Shown piece by piece: positions 2,928 to 9,566 of a stretch of DNA of 12,921 nt (the stretch's first letter is position 1; each line of letters starts with the position of its first letter). The notes below the pieces were generated by a model. The model was not told the origin of the DNA and made no database searches. It was given only the letters and a program-made list of their open reading frames with translations. Made by a program: the position numbers and the translations under genes. This DNA is from Candidatus Latescibacterota bacterium (GTDB lineage: Bacteria > JAAXHH01 > JACQVL01): assembly GCA_016209865.1 (NCBI GenBank), contig JACQVL010000110.1, positions 1 to 12,921 on the forward strand, in the 5' to 3' direction.

Positions 2928-2950
2928 AGTGACGAGTGACGAGTGACGAG
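2928..2950 (+). repeat. GTGAC heptamer repeat, copy 1
   Basis: Three heptamers of the form AGTGACG in tandem, starting five bases after the methyltransferase stop. This copy has GTGACGA in all three units, whereas the other three copies in the window have GTGACAA as the middle unit. It is not coding. Confidence 0.9.
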
Positions 2951-2981
2951 AGAAAAATCTGCTTTCTTATATGAGAGGATT

Positions 2982-3007
2982 GTCATTCCCGCGAAAGCGG
3001 GAATCCA
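2982..3007 (+). repeat. ATTCCCGC palindrome element, copy 1
   Basis: ATTCCCGC (2985-2992), loop GAAA, GCGGGAAT (2997-3004), flanked by GTC and CCA. This is the widespread ATTCCC-N8-GGGAAT type of repeat, similar in core to Neisseria dRS3. It lies 15 bases from the stop of the isomerase and in the opposite orientation to the copy on the other side of that gene. There is no T-run, so terminator function between the two convergent genes is uncertain. Confidence 0.85.
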
Positions 3008-3022
3008 TTTATCAGTAGATTC

Positions 3023-3826
3023 TCACACAAGCCCCAGCGTTCGGAGGAAGGCCATCGTCGTTGACGCGCCTTCCTCCCATGTCGCGCCACGATAAATCTT
3101 CACGGAGATGAATCGATCATACCCGATCTCCGTCAGCGTGCGCAGGACGGCGGCGAAATCCAGATGGCTGGTGCCGAAGATGCTGCCGTTCGTCTCGCAG
3201 AGATGGACGTGGGCCAGGTCAGCCCCCGCCAGCCGGATCGGGTCGGTGAGGGATCGCTCCTCGATGTTCATGTGCAACGTGTCGACCATCGGGCGTAGCG
3301 CGGGCGACCCGACACGCCGCACCATCCGGAGGACGTGAGCGACGGTGTGGTTGAACCCGACCTGGAGATGGTTGACCGGTTCGAGCACCAGGGTCACACC
3401 ACGGGCTTCTGCGCGGTGCGCGACGGCGCCGAGGCACTCGGCGATCCGGTCGTTGGCGATGGTTGAATCGGGTTCATCCTGGAGAAAGCCCTGCATCTGT
3501 CCGATCACCAGGATCGCGCCGAACCGGGCGGCGGTCTCGACATGGCCGAGCAGCCGTGCCACCGCCCGCTCGCGGATCGCCGGGTCTTTGGCGCACAGAC
3601 AGAGGCCTTCGTTGAAGTACGACCACCCGGTCAGGAACGAGACCATCGTGAGACGCGTCGCGGTTAAGGCGCGTTCGAGTGCATCCAGGTCGAACCCCGG
3701 AGGAGAGGGAAGGGAGAACTCGATCCCTGCATAGCCGAGTTCTTTGAGCCGTCGCAAGGCCCGTTCGAATTCCGCCATCGTGCCGAAACTCCCAGGCGGG
3801 TCGAGAATGTAGCTGAAGGAGGGCAT
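3023..3826 (-). CDS. sugar phosphate isomerase/epimerase, TIM barrel (AP endonuclease 2 fold)
   Basis: A 267-residue cytosolic protein of the xylose-isomerase-like TIM-barrel family, which moves carbonyl groups or inverts stereocentres in sugars and polyols using a divalent metal. Strand motifs include GYAGIEFSLP at 31-40, VLEPVN at 147-152, MVDTLHMNIEE at 180-190 and HVHLCETN at 206-213. Likely metal ligands are E149, D182, H185 and H208. The fourth ligand, normally Glu on the last strand, appears replaced by K243 (ISVKIYRG). The start at 3826 has AAGGAG seven bases upstream. The reading frame stays open further upstream, but only through a repeat element, so the longer form is rejected. It is convergent with the methyltransferase gene and divergent from the glutaredoxin-like gene. 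Fold is secure, substrate unknown. Confidence 0.88.
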   Translation of the reverse strand: MPSFSYILDPPGSFGTMAEFERALRRLKELGYAGIEFSLPSPPGFDLDALERALTATRLTMVSFLTGWSYFNEGLCLCAKDPAIRERAVARLLGHVETAARFGAILVIGQMQGFLQDEPDSTIANDRIAECLGAVAHRAEARGVTLVLEPVNHLQVGFNHTVAHVLRMVRRVGSPALRPMVDTLHMNIEERSLTDPIRLAGADLAHVHLCETNGSIFGTSHLDFAAVLRTLTEIGYDRFISVKIYRGATWEEGASTTMAFLRTLGLV

Positions 3827-3875
3827 GGGGAGGCTCCTTGTGTGGATGAATGAACCTGAACTTTGAACCGCTGTC

Positions 3876-3902
3876 TGGATTCCCGCTTTCGCGGGAATGA
3901 CA
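3876..3902 (-). repeat. ATTCCCGC palindrome element, copy 2 (inverted)
   Basis: ATTCCCGC (3879-3886), TTTC, GCGGGAAT (3891-3898), read as TGG...GAC on the + strand, so it is inverted relative to copies 1 and 3. It lies about 50 bases upstream of the isomerase start, so that gene is bracketed by inverted copies. Confidence 0.85.
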
Positions 3903-3930
3903 AGAAAAACCTGCGGGATGTAGGCATTAT

Positions 3931-3936
3931 TATAAT
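3931..3936 (+). promoter_or_regulatory. possible -10 element for the glutaredoxin-like gene
   Basis: An exact TATAAT lies 50 bases upstream of the start at 3987, in an AT-rich patch of an otherwise GC-rich region. No good TTGACA lies 16-18 bases upstream, so this is a weak single-element call. The downstream AATCCGC tandem repeat would be at the very start of the transcript. Confidence 0.3.
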
Positions 3937-3956
3937 CCGCAATCCGCAATCCGCAA
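3934..3956 (+). repeat. AATCCGC heptamer tandem repeat
   Basis: Three full AATCCGC heptamers followed by a partial AA in the gap between the divergent isomerase and glutaredoxin-like genes. It has the same period of seven as the GTGAC repeats but an unrelated sequence. Confidence 0.85.
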
Positions 3957-3986
3957 TCTAAAACTTTAGAATGAGGAGGAACGCGC

Positions 3987-4619
3987 ATGGGATTCCTTCG
4001 CGGATTGTTTGGCCGTGACAAGAAATCATCGTCTCCAGACCAGGCATCCAGCGCCTCGACTTCTCCTGGACCGGGCGCTGTCCCTGACTCGTCCGACCTG
4101 GAGATCGCCGTCTACGGGACGAAAGACGCGACCCGGTGTGTCAACGTGCGGGAGTTGCTCAGCCGGAATGGTTATCCCTACCGGGACGTTCGGGTGGATG
4201 ATGACCTGAGCACGCGGGCGTGGTTGCAGCGCGCGACCGGGGATGACGCCCTGCCCAAGGTGTTCGTCGGCGCCCGGTGTTACGGGGGGTTCGAGGATAT
4301 CCAGGCGATGATCTCGGACGGGACGTTCGAGCAGGCGCTCCACGGCGATCTGGCGGAGACCGGCGACGAGGACCTGGAACGGCTGAAGGAGGAGATGACG
4401 GTCGAGTCGATCATCGAACTCCTGAAGCGGGGAGAAGTCCTCACGATCAACGAGGGAAGCTCCGAGATCGACGTCTGGGCCGAACCCTTTGCCAGACCGC
4501 CGCGAGTGTTCTACGAAGGCATCCCGCAGCCGATCGAAGAGATCGACGCCGTGGTCGCCCGGATCGTCGAGCGTGTCGAGGCGGGGGAGATCACGGTTGT
4601 GTGGAAGGAGGAGGAGTGA
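3987..4619 (+). CDS. glutaredoxin-like protein lacking the nucleophilic Cys, with an unknown C-terminal domain
   Basis: A 210-residue cytosolic protein. An N-terminal MGFLRGLFGRDK looks like a short amphipathic anchor, followed by a low-complexity Ser/Pro linker to about residue 36. Residues 38-118 fit a glutaredoxin fold: beta strand LEIAVYG, then DATRCVNVRELL at 47-58, cis-Pro in ALPKVFVG at 88-95 and YGGFED at 99-104. Aligned to the usual CPYC site, the first Cys is Ala48 and only Cys51 remains, so standard dithiol or monothiol chemistry with the first Cys is not expected. Residues 128-210 form an acidic domain (VESIIELLKRGEVLTINEGSSEIDVW...) that I do not recognise. AGGAGGA lies six bases before the start. 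It is bracketed by palindrome copies 2 and 3. It may bind glutathione, act as an adaptor, or be redox-inactive. Confidence 0.8.
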   Translation: MGFLRGLFGRDKKSSSPDQASSASTSPGPGAVPDSSDLEIAVYGTKDATRCVNVRELLSRNGYPYRDVRVDDDLSTRAWLQRATGDDALPKVFVGARCYGGFEDIQAMISDGTFEQALHGDLAETGDEDLERLKEEMTVESIIELLKRGEVLTINEGSSEIDVWAEPFARPPRVFYEGIPQPIEEIDAVVARIVERVEAGEITVVWKEEE

Positions 4620-4625
4620 GTTGAG

Positions 4626-4648
4626 AGTGACGAGTGACAAGTGACGAG
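4626..4648 (+). repeat. GTGAC heptamer repeat, copy 2
   Basis: Heptamers AGTGACG, AGTGACA, AGTGACG begin seven bases after the stop of the glutaredoxin-like gene. The 23-bp core is identical to copies 3 and 4 and in the same orientation. Confidence 0.9.
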
Positions 4649-4706
4649 TAAAGAACATGGAATCATGAAGGACACAAAGGGAGTATCAATCTCATGTTGT
4701 GCACGA

Positions 4707-4733
4707 TGTCATTCCCGCGCAGGCGGGAATCCA
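4707..4733 (+). repeat. ATTCCCGC palindrome element, copy 3
   Basis: ATTCCCGC (4711-4718), GCAG, GCGGGAAT (4723-4730), with the same TGTC and CCATTT flanks as copy 1. The loop differs (GCAG instead of GAAA), showing sequence drift between copies while the stem is kept. It lies 45 bases before the dehydrogenase start. Confidence 0.85.
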
Positions 4734-4777
4734 TTTCTTCGTGCCCTTCGTGATTGCTCATTCATGGGAGGATGTGC

Positions 4778-5809
4778 ATGCCAATCAAAGCTGCCGTCAT
4801 CGGCGCGGGCTCGATGGGGAACAACCATCTCGCCCTCCTGGCCACTATCCCGGACGTACAGATCGTCGCCCTGGTCGATCCCGACGAACAGGCGTCGCGC
4901 GCGGCTGCGGAGAAGCACCGGGTGCCCGCCGTCTATCCCGACATCGCCCCGATGCTCGCCGCCGAGCGGCCTGAGTACGTCGTCGTCGCCTCCCCCGTCA
5001 AATACCACGCTCCCCAGGCGATCGCGGCGTTCGACGCGGGCGCGCACGTGCTCGTCGAGAAGCCGCTCTGCATGGACCTGGCGGAAGCGGAAGGGATCGT
5101 CGCGGCCGCGACACGGGCGGGGCGACTGTTCACGATGGGGTTCCAGCGCCGGCAGAGCCGCGCGTTCCGGGCGCTGAAACGGTTCATCGCGGACGGGAAA
5201 CTCGGCGCGATCTACCACAGCCGCGTCTGGGGCGGCCACACGATGAGTTATGCCTGGGGCCGGTACCACCACCGCAAAGACCAGTCGTTCGGCGGAGTGG
5301 CCGCTGCGACGGTCATCCACGACCTCGACGCGCTGCTGTGGGTGATCGGCGTGCCCGAGCCTGTGACGGTGAGCGCGTCCATCTTCCGGAAGCTCGACAA
5401 AGTGCCCGACCCGTACATCAGCTTCATCGGGACGGCGGCGGACGTGACGGTCGAGGACTTCGCCCACGCGCACGTCCGTTTCGCGGACGGGTCGTCGATG
5501 TCGATCGAGGGCAACTGGCTGATGCATCCCCGCAAGCGACATTCCGGGTTTGAGATCAACGGAGTCCTGGGCATCGGGAGCGACGCCCCACCGATGGTCG
5601 AGCTGGATCGGGGACGCGATGTCGACCCGGTCGAACTGGAGCACGAGCCGGAGCCGGCGAATGCCGTTCTGCAGGAGCATGTCGAATTCCTCGCGGCCAT
5701 CCAGGGCCACGGCACTCCGGTCGTGACCTTCCGGGAGGCGTTGGTCGTGCAGCGCATCCTGGTCGGACTGTATGAATCAGCGGAACGAGGCGGGGAAGTG
5801 AGGGTGTAA
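4778..5809 (+). CDS. Gfo/Idh/MocA family NAD(P)-dependent oxidoreductase
   Basis: A 343-residue cytosolic dehydrogenase of the glucose-fructose oxidoreductase/inositol dehydrogenase/MocA family, which oxidises or reduces a hydroxyl group of sugars, inositols or related compounds. The Rossmann loop GAGSMG is at 9-14, the diagnostic EKPL at 94-97 (Lys95 usually catalytic) and VIHDLD at 179-184 carries the usual catalytic His181. The C-terminal sheet includes VRFADGSSMSIEGNW at 233-247. Length is typical. The start at 4778 has GGGAGG a few bases upstream; ATG 4772 is a close alternative, and an ORF start at 4754 would place the site inside the gene. It is the first gene of a four-gene run, six bases from the next. 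Family is certain, substrate unknown. Confidence 0.93.
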   Translation: MPIKAAVIGAGSMGNNHLALLATIPDVQIVALVDPDEQASRAAAEKHRVPAVYPDIAPMLAAERPEYVVVASPVKYHAPQAIAAFDAGAHVLVEKPLCMDLAEAEGIVAAATRAGRLFTMGFQRRQSRAFRALKRFIADGKLGAIYHSRVWGGHTMSYAWGRYHHRKDQSFGGVAAATVIHDLDALLWVIGVPEPVTVSASIFRKLDKVPDPYISFIGTAADVTVEDFAHAHVRFADGSSMSIEGNWLMHPRKRHSGFEINGVLGIGSDAPPMVELDRGRDVDPVELEHEPEPANAVLQEHVEFLAAIQGHGTPVVTFREALVVQRILVGLYESAERGGEVRV

Positions 5810-5815
5810 TCATCG

Positions 5816-7273
5816 ATGTCCAGATATTTCCGGTACCGTAGTCTCGCCGATCTGCACGCAGACATTGTCAAACTTGGATTAGAGGACGATGTCCGGCTCA
5901 CCGACGACCTGAGCCCGCTCTGGCGGCCGGTCGCGTTCGGCGGCCGGACGATCGGGAACGCGCTCGCCATCCAGCCGATGGAAGGCTGCGACGGGACGCT
6001 CGACGGGAAGCCGGATGAATTGACAGTCCGGCGGTGGGAGCGGTTCGGCGCCGGAGGGGCGAAGCTCATCTGGGGGGAGGCGACCGCCGTCGTCGAGGAG
6101 GGGCGGGCGAACACCCGGCAGCTCCTCATCAATGAAACGAACGCGCGGGCGCTGGACGACCTCCTCGCGCGCACACGCGCCGCACACCGGACGGTCTGCG
6201 GGTCTGATGACGACCTCGTCGTCGGCCTGCAGCTCACCCACTCCGGCCGGTACAGCTACCAGAGGCCGCTGATCGCGTTCCACGACCCGGCGGTCGATCC
6301 GATCACCTTAGCGGACAAAAAACGGAAACTCCCGGTGACGGACGAGTATCCGATTCTTTCCGATGACGACCTCAAACGCATCGAGGACGCGCTCGTCGCG
6401 GGCGCTCTGTTAGCCTGGCGGATCGGGTTCGATTTCGTCGACATCAAGCAGTGCCACCGGTATCTGCTGTCGGAACTCTTAGCCGCGAAGTTGCGCGAGG
6501 GTGTGTACGGCGGCAGCCTCGACAACCGCACCCGGCTCGTCCGGAACGTGATTCGACGGATCCGGGAGGAGACGGGGGATCGTCTGCCGCTCGCATCGCG
6601 CATGAACGTGTACGACGGAATTCCGTACCGGATCGACCCGGAGACGTCGGTCGGGGTACACCGCCTGTATCCCATTCCGTACCGGTCGGGGTTTGGCGTG
6701 GATGAGCAGAACCCTTTCCGCGAGGACTTGACAGAGCCCATCCGGGTCGCCGGCCTGCTGCGGGAGTGGGGGGTGACGATGGTGAACGTCACGATGGGGA
6801 GTCCGTACTACAACCCGCACGTCGGCCGGCCGGCCGAGAAGCCTCCGATCGACGGATACGAAGCCCCGGAGCATCCCCTCTACGGGGTCGCCCGGCATTT
6901 CCGCTGTGCGGCCGCCGTCCAGCGGGCGCATCCCGACCTGGTGGTCGTCGGGACCGGGTATAGCTGGCTCCAGCAGTACCTGATCAACGCGGCGGCGGCG
7001 AACATGCGGGACGGCCGGGTGACGATCGCCGGGGTTGGCCGTGGGGCGCTCGCGTACCCCAACTTCGCACGGGACGCCCAAACAGCCGGGTCGATGGCCG
7101 GGAAGAAGGTCTGCATCACGGTCAGCTACTGCACCGCGTTGATGCGCGGCAAGCACAACGAACTCGGCCAGTTTCCGTCCGGGTGCGTCCCACGTGATAA
7201 GGTCTACGCGGAGGTCTATAAGGAGATGCTGCGGACGAGTGACCGGCAAAAATCAGTGACGAGTGACAAGTGA
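5816..7273 (+). CDS. Old Yellow Enzyme-like NADH:flavin oxidoreductase
   Basis: A 485-residue FMN-dependent TIM-barrel enzyme of the OYE family, which reduces activated C=C bonds or oxidises amines and related substrates. Signatures are IQPMEGCDG at 52-60, WGEATAV at 86-92, LQLTHSGRYS at 138-147, FDFVDIKQCHRYLLSELL at 205-222 and YGGSLDNRTRL at 231-241, all matching the flavin and substrate-binding strands. A C-terminal KVCITVSYCTALM with Cys433, Cys439 and Cys457 stands where 2,4-dienoyl-CoA reductase relatives hold a 4Fe-4S cluster, but the spacing differs. It begins six bases after the dehydrogenase. The final SVTSDK and the stop codon are encoded by a heptamer repeat (7255-7277), so the native C-terminus was probably altered by that element. 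Family confident, substrate unknown. Confidence 0.92.
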   Translation: MSRYFRYRSLADLHADIVKLGLEDDVRLTDDLSPLWRPVAFGGRTIGNALAIQPMEGCDGTLDGKPDELTVRRWERFGAGGAKLIWGEATAVVEEGRANTRQLLINETNARALDDLLARTRAAHRTVCGSDDDLVVGLQLTHSGRYSYQRPLIAFHDPAVDPITLADKKRKLPVTDEYPILSDDDLKRIEDALVAGALLAWRIGFDFVDIKQCHRYLLSELLAAKLREGVYGGSLDNRTRLVRNVIRRIREETGDRLPLASRMNVYDGIPYRIDPETSVGVHRLYPIPYRSGFGVDEQNPFREDLTEPIRVAGLLREWGVTMVNVTMGSPYYNPHVGRPAEKPPIDGYEAPEHPLYGVARHFRCAAAVQRAHPDLVVVGTGYSWLQQYLINAAAANMRDGRVTIAGVGRGALAYPNFARDAQTAGSMAGKKVCITVSYCTALMRGKHNELGQFPSGCVPRDKVYAEVYKEMLRTSDRQKSVTSDK

Positions 7274-7277
7274 CGAG
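7255..7277 (+). repeat. GTGAC heptamer repeat, copy 3 (supplies the stop codon)
   Basis: Same 23-bp core as copies 2 and 4. Here it overlaps the end of the flavin oxidoreductase gene: the last six codons and the TGA at 7271-7273 lie in the repeat. Its 3' end runs straight into the GAGGAGG that serves the next gene. Confidence 0.9.
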
Positions 7278-7288
7278 AGGAGGAAACC

Positions 7289-8053
7289 ATGCGACTCAAG
7301 GAGAAAGTAGCCATCATTACCGGGGGCGGGTCGGGCATCGGCCGGGCGACCTGCCAGCTCTTCGCCGAAGAAGGGGCGAAAGTCGCCGTCGTGGACATGA
7401 ACGAGGAAGGCGGCAAGGAGACGGTTTCCCTCATTACCCAGGCGGGGGGAACCGCGACGTTCATCCGGGCAAACATCTCGAACGAGCCGGAGATCATTCA
7501 GATGGTGGACAAGGCCGTGCAAACCTACGGGACGGTCAACATCCTGGTCAACAACGCGGCCGCGTTCGTGTTCGGACGGGTCGAGACGGCGACGGTGGAG
7601 GACTGGCACCGGGTGCTGGGCACGAACGTGATCGGCGGGGCGCTCTGCGTCAAGCACGTCGTCCCGGTGATGAAACAGGCCGGCGGCGGGGCGATCGTCA
7701 ACTTGGGGTCGATCAGCAGCTTCATCGCCCAGCCGGACTACATCCCGTACAACACGTCAAAATCAGCGGTGATCAACATGACCCGCTGTCTGGCGATGGA
7801 CCTGGCGCCATTCAACATCCGGGCGAACGCCGTCTGTCCTGGGGCGATCGACACTCCGGCCTTGTGGCGTGCCGCCAAAGAGATGAACATGGGCGAGGAT
7901 GAGGTGCGGAAGGTGTGGGGAGGCGCGCATCTTCTCAAACGGCTCGGCCAGCCGCGCGAGATTGCGTATGGGATTCTGTTCCTCGCCTCCGACGAGGCCT
8001 CGTTCGTGACGGGTACGTACCTGATGGTGGATGGCGGGTGGACGGCGCAATAA
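7289..8053 (+). CDS. SDR family NAD(P)-dependent oxidoreductase
   Basis: A 254-residue classical short-chain dehydrogenase that interconverts an alcohol and a ketone. The cofactor loop TGGGSGIG is at 11-18. Asp36 in VVDMN at the end of the second strand favours NAD over NADP. NNAA is at 88-91, catalytic Ser at 141-144 (GSISS), and Tyr154 with Lys158 in YNTSK. The C-terminus (LMVDGGWTAQ) is typical of the family and length is normal. The ribosome binding site GAGGAGG is directly upstream of the ATG. It sits 15 bases after the flavin oxidoreductase and 43 bases before the transporter, so the three are probably cotranscribed. The exact substrate cannot be named. Confidence 0.95.
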   Translation: MRLKEKVAIITGGGSGIGRATCQLFAEEGAKVAVVDMNEEGGKETVSLITQAGGTATFIRANISNEPEIIQMVDKAVQTYGTVNILVNNAAAFVFGRVETATVEDWHRVLGTNVIGGALCVKHVVPVMKQAGGGAIVNLGSISSFIAQPDYIPYNTSKSAVINMTRCLAMDLAPFNIRANAVCPGAIDTPALWRAAKEMNMGEDEVRKVWGGAHLLKRLGQPREIAYGILFLASDEASFVTGTYLMVDGGWTAQ

Positions 8054-8056
8054 GGC

Positions 8057-8079
8057 AGTGACGAGTGACAAGTGACGAG
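8057..8079 (+). repeat. GTGAC heptamer repeat, copy 4
   Basis: Identical 23-bp core to copies 2 and 3, beginning four bases after the SDR stop codon and ending 17 bases before the transporter start. Confidence 0.9.
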
Positions 8080-8096: not shown

Positions 8097-9566
8097 GTGC
8101 GTCTGACCCCCTGGAAGCTCACCGGACTGGTCTCTGGACTTGCGGCGTTCGCCCTGCTCGCCGTCCTCGACACGCCGTTACAACACTACGGCGCGTGGGG
8201 GGCGCGACCGTCATACGCGGCCGCCGTGACCGCGCTGATGGCGATCTGGTGGCTGACCGAGGCGCTGCCCATCCATCTCACCGCCTGCGTTCCGCTGATC
8301 CTGTTTCCGGTCACCGGGGTATTCGGGCCTGCGCTCAGGACGACGGTGGTGGAATCGGTGAAACCCTACGTCGATCCGTACATCTTCCTGTTCGCAGGCG
8401 GAATGTGCATCGCGGCGGCGATGCAGCGATGGGACTTGCACCGGCGCATCGCGCTGGGGATCATGCGACTGATCGGCACCGACCCCCGCCGTCTGCTGTT
8501 GGGAATCTTGACGGCGACCGCGTGTCTTTCCCTCTGGATCTCCAACTCCGCGACCGCCACGATGATGGTGTCGATCGGGATCGCGGTGATCGCGCAGCTC
8601 GAACGCCAGCTCGGCGGCAAGCGGCTCGTCCATTACGGCCTGGCGATCATGCTGGGGATCGCCTACGCAGCCAACGTCGGGGGCATCGGCACGAAGATCG
8701 GCACGGCGACGAACGCGCAATTCAGCGGCCTGATGGCGCAGATGGGGATCGAGATTCCGTTCCTGACGTTCATGGTCATCGGCCTCCCGTTCGTCATCAT
8801 GTTCCTGCCCGTCGTCTGGTTCGTCCTCTGGCAGATCGGGAAGGGGGACGCGCCCCGGGCGGACATGGGGCGGACGGCGATCGTTGAAGAGATGGCGAAG
8901 CTGGGACCGATGAAGCCGACCGAGCGGGTGGTGCTGGGTGTGTTCATCGTGACCGCCGTCCTCTGGATTCTGGGGAAGCCGATCACGGATTTCTTACAGG
9001 CCAGGGTCACGGCGTTCAACGTCACGACCGCCCACGTCGAGGGGGGCATCGCCATGCTGGCCGCGCTGGTGCTCTTAGCGTCTCGCCTCGACGGCCATCA
9101 GGTGCTCGATGCCCGTGCGTTTCGCGCGGTGCCGTGGACGACCCTCCTCCTGCTCGGCGGCAGCTTCGCCATGGCGAACGGCATCCAGAAGAGCGGCCTG
9201 TCCGAGTGGATGGGCACGCAACTGGTCGGCGTCCGCACCCTCGGCCCGTTCTGGCAGGTGCTGTTGACGAGCGTGGCGACCGTCACTCTCTCCGCCATTG
9301 CCTCCAACGTGGCCACGATCAGCGTGATGTTCAACCTCCTGAAAGATGCCATCCCGCCGCCGTATCTGACGACCGTCCTGTTCACCTCCGCGATCGCCGC
9401 GTCGTGCGACTTTGCCCTCCCGGTCGGGACGCCGCCCAACGCGATCGTCTTCGGGAGCGGGTACGTGTCGATCCCGCGGATGGCCAGGACGGGGGTGCTG
9501 CTCGACCTGCTGGCGGCGGTGTTAGCGGCCTGCTGGTGCTGGGTAATCGTCCGGTTGGTGCTGTGA
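8097..9566 (+). CDS. DASS (SLC13-type) divalent anion:Na+ symporter family transporter
   Basis: A 489-residue inner-membrane protein with about ten to twelve hydrophobic segments, of the DASS family, which imports dicarboxylates, tricarboxylates or sulfate with sodium. Family marks are WWLTEALP at 51-58, ISNSATATMM at 148-157 (first SNT-type motif), GGIGTKIGTATN at 195-206, ASNVATISVM at 402-411 (second SNT-type motif) and the diagnostic LPVGTPPNAIVFGSGY at 441-456. The two substrate loops read SNS and SNV, not SNT, so specificity may differ from VcINDY-type succinate carriers. The start is a GTG with AGGA about seven bases upstream; an ATG at 8089 is out of frame and stops at once. It is last of the four-gene run and the best clue that the substrate is an organic anion. 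Confidence 0.9.
   Translation: MRLTPWKLTGLVSGLAAFALLAVLDTPLQHYGAWGARPSYAAAVTALMAIWWLTEALPIHLTACVPLILFPVTGVFGPALRTTVVESVKPYVDPYIFLFAGGMCIAAAMQRWDLHRRIALGIMRLIGTDPRRLLLGILTATACLSLWISNSATATMMVSIGIAVIAQLERQLGGKRLVHYGLAIMLGIAYAANVGGIGTKIGTATNAQFSGLMAQMGIEIPFLTFMVIGLPFVIMFLPVVWFVLWQIGKGDAPRADMGRTAIVEEMAKLGPMKPTERVVLGVFIVTAVLWILGKPITDFLQARVTAFNVTTAHVEGGIAMLAALVLLASRLDGHQVLDARAFRAVPWTTLLLLGGSFAMANGIQKSGLSEWMGTQLVGVRTLGPFWQVLLTSVATVTLSAIASNVATISVMFNLLKDAIPPPYLTTVLFTSAIAASCDFALPVGTPPNAIVFGSGYVSIPRMARTGVLLDLLAAVLAACWCWVIVRLVL

Follow-up and report, generated by a model that had tools for sequence, protein, structure and literature searches.

Heptamer arrays in the window

The window, that is, the whole 12,921-bp stretch of DNA analysed from a Candidatus Latescibacterota bacterium, carries four short arrays of the heptamer GTGACRA on the + strand. 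A scan of the window located GTGACGAGTGACAAGTGAC exactly at 4627, 7256 and 8058, all on the + strand, and a one-mismatch copy on the same strand at 2929, where a linker reads GA in place of AA; 0.01 matches were expected in the window from a shuffled-window control. A fifth array, of the GCGGATT family, lies on the opposite strand. The arrays and their surroundings are as follows.

2929..2950, + strand, GTGACRA array: linkers GA-GA-GA; stop codon at 2921-2923, 5 bp before; candidate 5′ arm of a pair whose 3′ arm is no longer clear
3934..3958, − strand, GCGGATT-family array (AATCCGC on the + strand): points inward at the right-hand edge of its space; gene start at 3987
4627..4648, + strand, GTGACRA array: linkers GA-AA-GA; stop codon at 4617-4619, 7 bp before
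7256..7277, + strand, GTGACRA array: linkers GA-AA-GA; overlaps the 3′ end of gene 5816-7273; next start at 7289
8058..8079, + strand, GTGACRA array: linkers GA-AA-GA; stop codon at 8051-8053, 4 bp before; GTG start at 8097, 17 bp after

The scan thus confirmed the four same-strand copies of the initial annotation; they lie 4 to 7 bp after stop codons or, in one case, over the stop. GA-AA-GA, as in array 4627..4648, is the most frequent linker string in the genome sample. The array at 7256-7277 supplies the last codons and the stop (TGA, 7271-7273) of gene 5816-7273, so that arrays can replace a native stop. The window also holds three copies of the palindrome GTCATTCCCGCGAAAGCGGGAATCCA (2982-3007, 3876-3901 and 4708-4733), nested in mid-space with no preference for an edge; half of this palindrome had 74 matches in the 1.0-Mb sample described below.

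Placement of the arrays across the genome

The genome of the window is a 3.75-Mb draft in 356 contigs and is 83% complete. Allowing up to two mismatches, the 19-mer GTGACGAGTGACAAGTGAC has 471 matches in it, 234 forward and 237 reverse, while the reversed control pattern CAGTGARCAGTGARCAGTG had none in the same whole-genome scan. This control is itself another heptamer word, GTGARCA, with about 70-80 matches in genome G079 (that of locus L129) and in G100, a relative of genome G063 (see below). Placement statistics rest on 1.0 of the 3.75 Mb of contigs, in which genes were called with a hexamer model trained on long ORFs. Most of the sampled contigs were chosen for holding a match, which biases density and leaves orientation and side unbiased. 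Twenty contigs chosen without regard to matches contained about 13 arrays per 100 kb; the window is therefore above average but not special.

In the 1.0-Mb sample, only 9 of 159 GTGACRA arrays lay inside genes, and 135 of the 144 intergenic ones were nearer to the gene on their own 5′ side. Of these 144, 86 followed a stop in the sense direction (median 4.5 bp) and 58 preceded a start in the antisense direction (median 25 bp), with the other gene about 100-120 bp away on the far side. Arrays thus lie at the edge of an intergenic space with the G-rich strand pointing inward, whichever strand the neighbouring gene is on. The non-random link to gene edges proposed by the initial annotation is borne out by these counts. 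Over the whole genome the matches are evenly divided between the two strands (234/237), and placement after stops turned out to be half of the rule, antisense placement before starts being the other half.

The rule extends to other sequences. Among intergenic tandem repeats of this genome, periods 7 and 14 were strongly enriched and no other of periods 4 to 15 was. The period-7 words were GTGACRA, GATTTTR, AAGGACG, GTGRTCR and GGGGTCA, with fewer of GCGGATT and others. Inward placement was found for 135/144 GTGACRA, 52/53 GATTTTR, 38/43 AAGGACG, 43/46 GTGRTCR and 12/14 GGGGTCA arrays (280 of 300 when the five families are pooled), and in each family the inward strand is richer in G than in C. 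A control palindrome, also common between genes, did not follow the rule (inward in 20 of 58). By gene layout, the pooled families pointed inward in 92-95% of cases between co-directional genes, in 94% between convergent genes and, more weakly, in 76% between divergent genes.

Two sequence properties were considered as causes of the orientation. Stop codons in all three frames would fit GTGACRA and do not fit AAGGACG, GTGGTCG and GGGGTCA, all of which obey the rule. A GGG run is present in the unit of GGGGTCA only; GTGACRA, GATTTTR, AAGGACG and GTGRTCR do not have it and lack the four G-tracts of a quadruplex. Since four of the five families obey the rule without a G-tract, quadruplexes cannot cause it.

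The inward rule is symmetric under reversal and is therefore not a rule of 3′ untranslated regions. A signal in the RNA at transcript 3′ ends, for processing, protection or termination, is accordingly improbable. It would account for the sense arrays just after stops, and some pairs would form very stable RNA hairpins (e.g. −73.4 kcal/mol, z −13.8), but antisense placement before starts is equally clear, five unrelated sequences share the rule and single arrays have no pairing partner. The transcript role put forward in the initial annotation is likewise unsupported by the 58 arrays antisense before starts and by the rule holding, though less strongly, between divergent genes, where no transcript ends. 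The pairs also differ from intrinsic terminators: their T-run is internal, adjoining the middle, and arrays flank starts and divergent genes as well.

Paired edges and make-up of the arrays

Arrays capped both edges in 89 intergenic spaces, 2.5 times the 35 expected if the edges were independent, and in 76 of these 89 the same family stood on both edges (mean 24 and maximum 36 in shuffles). Spaces capped on the left only (73) and on the right only (68) were about equally frequent. From copy to copy, the middles are unconserved in this genome, save for nested palindromes and a few similar stretches. Unlike most brackets, two nearby GATTTTR-bracketed spaces, L043:185-284 and L043:1103-1214, have middles that are 89% identical, perhaps through duplication of a gene plus its spacer.

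The linkers of GTGACRA arrays are position-specific, the first being GA in 83%, the second AA in 48% and the third GA in 77%. Their order along the arrays is GA-AA-GA-GA, with A-rich bases on both flanks, and array lengths vary by whole heptamers. Given the position-specific linkers, each array reproduces a set string of about 30 bp and is not a product of local slippage. Heptamer microsatellites growing locally by simple polymerase slippage would agree with the exclusive enrichment of periods 7 and 14 and with length differences of whole heptamers. Identical words at hundreds of unrelated places, the fixed orientation and the family agreement on both edges nevertheless make slippage very improbable as the sole cause, although it may trim or extend arrays.

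Whether the two arms of a pair match each other depends on the genome. In a permutation test, pairing between own arms in the window's genome was below that of random arms of the same family in two families (p for excess 0.9998 and 0.9990), whereas in two Acidobacteria families own arms matched better than other arms of the same family (p 0.001 and 0.0002). Arms as exact mirror copies can be seen at single Acidobacteria sites; as a general description they are backed by the test in only those two Acidobacteria families and contradicted in the window's genome. As own arms are no better matched there, selection for pairing does not account for them in that genome, nor does a fresh inverted duplication. 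These results bear on the idea that an intergenic hairpin, of DNA or RNA, is selected for structure alone, so that any sequence with matching arms would serve. The two Acidobacteria families agree with it, as do the hairpins that stay at orthologous spaces while their sequence is replaced (see below). Such selection gives no reason, though, for the G-rich arm to be the 5′ one every time, and many spaces have one arm only; together with the poor matching of own arms in the window's genome, this makes the idea rather unlikely.

Occurrence in other bacteria and family switching at orthologous spaces

The array form in IUPAC code occurs, among the matches listed, in Acidobacteria, Chloroflexi, Bacteroidetes, Verrucomicrobia, Cyanobacteria, Nitrospirae and Proteobacteria. 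Matches to a form containing the word GTGAC three times numbered 494 and 470 in the Pyrinomonadaceae MAGs G063 and G064 and 404 in a Chloroflexaceae MAG. GTGACRA arrays pointed inward in 37/46 cases in Acidobacteria and in 56/72 in other phyla, with crude gene calls. The repeat is absent from the nearest relatives compared, which share only the order with the window's genome: two of them showed no period-7 arrays in about 65-75 kb each, and a third (G013) has other heptamers. In one Pyrinomonadaceae MAG, a convergent space (L313:2885-2995) contains a near-perfect GTGACRR hairpin with a 34-bp stem, calculated at −73.4 kcal/mol as RNA (z −13.8).

Orthologous loci were fetched through the proteins adjoining arrays in G063 and compared in three Pyrinomonadaceae, in which protein identity to G063 is 96-98% (G064) and 87-89% (G084). 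The orthologous space at site 1 carries GTGACRR, GTTGTCA and AATCGTR in the three genomes, and that at site 3 GTGACRR, GTGATGA and ACGATGA. At both spaces the two arms have switched together, and the flanking genes align up to the stop and the start. In a further orthologous space, GTGACRA is common to G063 and G064, and G084 has GTRAGCA. As close relatives of the window's genome are lacking, such swapping was seen only in another phylum.

Over 140 kb, G063 and G084 share 60 conserved gene pairs. Spaces with a hairpin in both species were dissimilar in 9 of 13 cases, whereas those with a hairpin in neither were alignable in 17 of 19 (Fisher p = 0.0016). At 122250, differing hairpins stand between identical conserved spacer sequences. 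At 121072, a hairpin of about 56 bp is present in one species inside an otherwise conserved spacer, which looks like a plain gain, with no clear target duplication. By contrast, an ordinary GC-rich terminator hairpin at the orthologous site 10525 has kept its sequence, as the heptamer hairpins do not, and this too argues against reading the latter as signals at transcript 3′ ends.

Origin of the arrays

Taken together, the family agreement between edges and the simultaneous switching indicate that both arms arrive together. The element would then consist of two inverted, inward-pointing heptamer arrays of one family around a variable middle. Such elements would lie between genes. Insertion or rewriting would affect both arms together, which would let a space exchange its family at the two edges in one step and leave the genes on either side intact. 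If the elements were tolerated almost only between genes, the 5′ arm would be found in sense immediately downstream of a stop, and the 3′ arm in antisense immediately upstream of the ribosome-binding site and start. Single arrays, those of the window included, would most simply be elements that lost one arm by deletion, and the similar counts of left-only and right-only spaces are as the decay of a symmetric pair predicts. About half of our confidence goes to this explanation as a whole, in which paired repeat elements are tolerated in intergenic DNA, are inserted or rewritten each as a unit, and leave single arrays as decayed halves; that joint estimate also covers the four window copies as 5′ arms. 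Rather than an RNA signal, the arrays are most likely intergenic DNA that is non-autonomous or neutral, presumably with no cellular function. The initial annotation had alternatively suggested targeted insertion at gene ends; the link to edges stands, the restriction to 3′ ends does not, and it is better to speak of insertion, or survival, at either edge of a gene.

Some observations count against paired elements. The middles are mostly unrelated in the window's genome, unlike those of a classical MITE, and the one clean gain site came without a clear target duplication. The worse pairing of own arms in two families does not fit a freshly inserted palindrome. No match to a Y1 transposase (REP-type, PF01797, Y1_Tnp), an RVT_1 domain or a Ku domain was found in the three array-richest genomes, that of the window (83% complete) and the two densest Acidobacteria, G063 and G064, all of them draft assemblies. 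As far as these draft assemblies allow, RAYT, a reverse transcriptase and Ku were therefore rejected as agents.

The main rivals to paired elements are selection for hairpin structure, discussed above, and repair by end extension. In the latter, heptamers would be added to 3′ ends at intergenic breaks, either in a telomerase-like manner or through templated fill-in during alternative end joining; joining of the extended ends would then replace the whole space up to the gene on each side. This would account for G-rich strands that point inward at both edges, for a single family in each event, for the unmatched unit order, for the A-run inside each array and for replacement up to the stop and start. 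We give it a small probability only, considering that no RVT_1 or Ku domain was found in those three genomes, that no template RNA is known and that the perfect palindromes of some Acidobacteria would need a further step.

Comparison with known repeats and significance

The STRR heptanucleotides and small dispersed repeats of cyanobacteria are intergenic repeats with heptamer units in many copies, and the GTGACRA-type arrays resemble STRR in these respects. REPIN or BIME-type elements, moved by a RAYT (Y1) transposase, are also intergenic inverted pairs in hundreds of copies. The arms described here are heptamer arrays instead of small palindromes, and with no Y1_Tnp match in the window's genome, G063 or G064, assignment to this group is highly unlikely.

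The closest resemblance is to the G-rich heptamers GGGNATC and GGGGAYT of Xanthomonas and Nostoc. These form arrays of a few units, about 90% intergenic, which are nearer to the 5′ neighbouring ORF regardless of its orientation, sense up to 50 bp after stops or antisense up to 50 bp before starts; convergent inverted pairs occur in 70-75 cases, and quadruplexes are discussed (Rehm et al. 2015, PMC4692102). The arrays of the window's genome are likewise intergenic 7-bp tandem repeats close to the 5′ ORF, form convergent pairs and follow the same rule. One G-quadruplex family per genome is described there, compared with five families here, four of them without a G-tract, and the sections covered report neither family agreement between edges nor swapping at orthologous spaces (PMC4692102). 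The TAACTGA repeats of marine Beggiatoaceae, which are mixed with other heptamers in Microcystis, are similarly intergenic direct heptamer repeats at gene edges with a patchy distribution over distant phyla (MacGregor 2015, PMC4679880). They are mostly forward and just upstream of starts and were read as translational signals, whereas here start-side copies are antisense and stop-side copies sense. Dimorphic microdiversity loci also involve the replacement of short intergenic segments between relatives, partly by repeat elements, although the portion of the report covered describes no heptamer architecture or paired switching (PMC2884548). In the part of the literature searched, we found no mention of the motif GTGACGAGTGAC, and no report of several families under one rule in one genome or of paired family switching.

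So far, accounts of intergenic heptamer repeats have been scattered, and quadruplexes, control of translation or slippage were invoked to explain them. That five unrelated heptamers of one genome, and arrays in several phyla, obey the same rule speaks for a single shared cause at the level of DNA. It is possible, though doubtful, that an as yet unrecognised process present in many distant bacteria rewrites spaces from edge to edge and leaves one and the same heptamer at the two 3′ ends of a gap. A single event would then give the spacer a different word from the genome's repertoire, and the bracket would persist. A kept bracket with the word exchanged on both sides makes the common cause testable by strain comparison. 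It also reveals a rapid way in which bacterial spacers, the bases around start codons included, are replaced.
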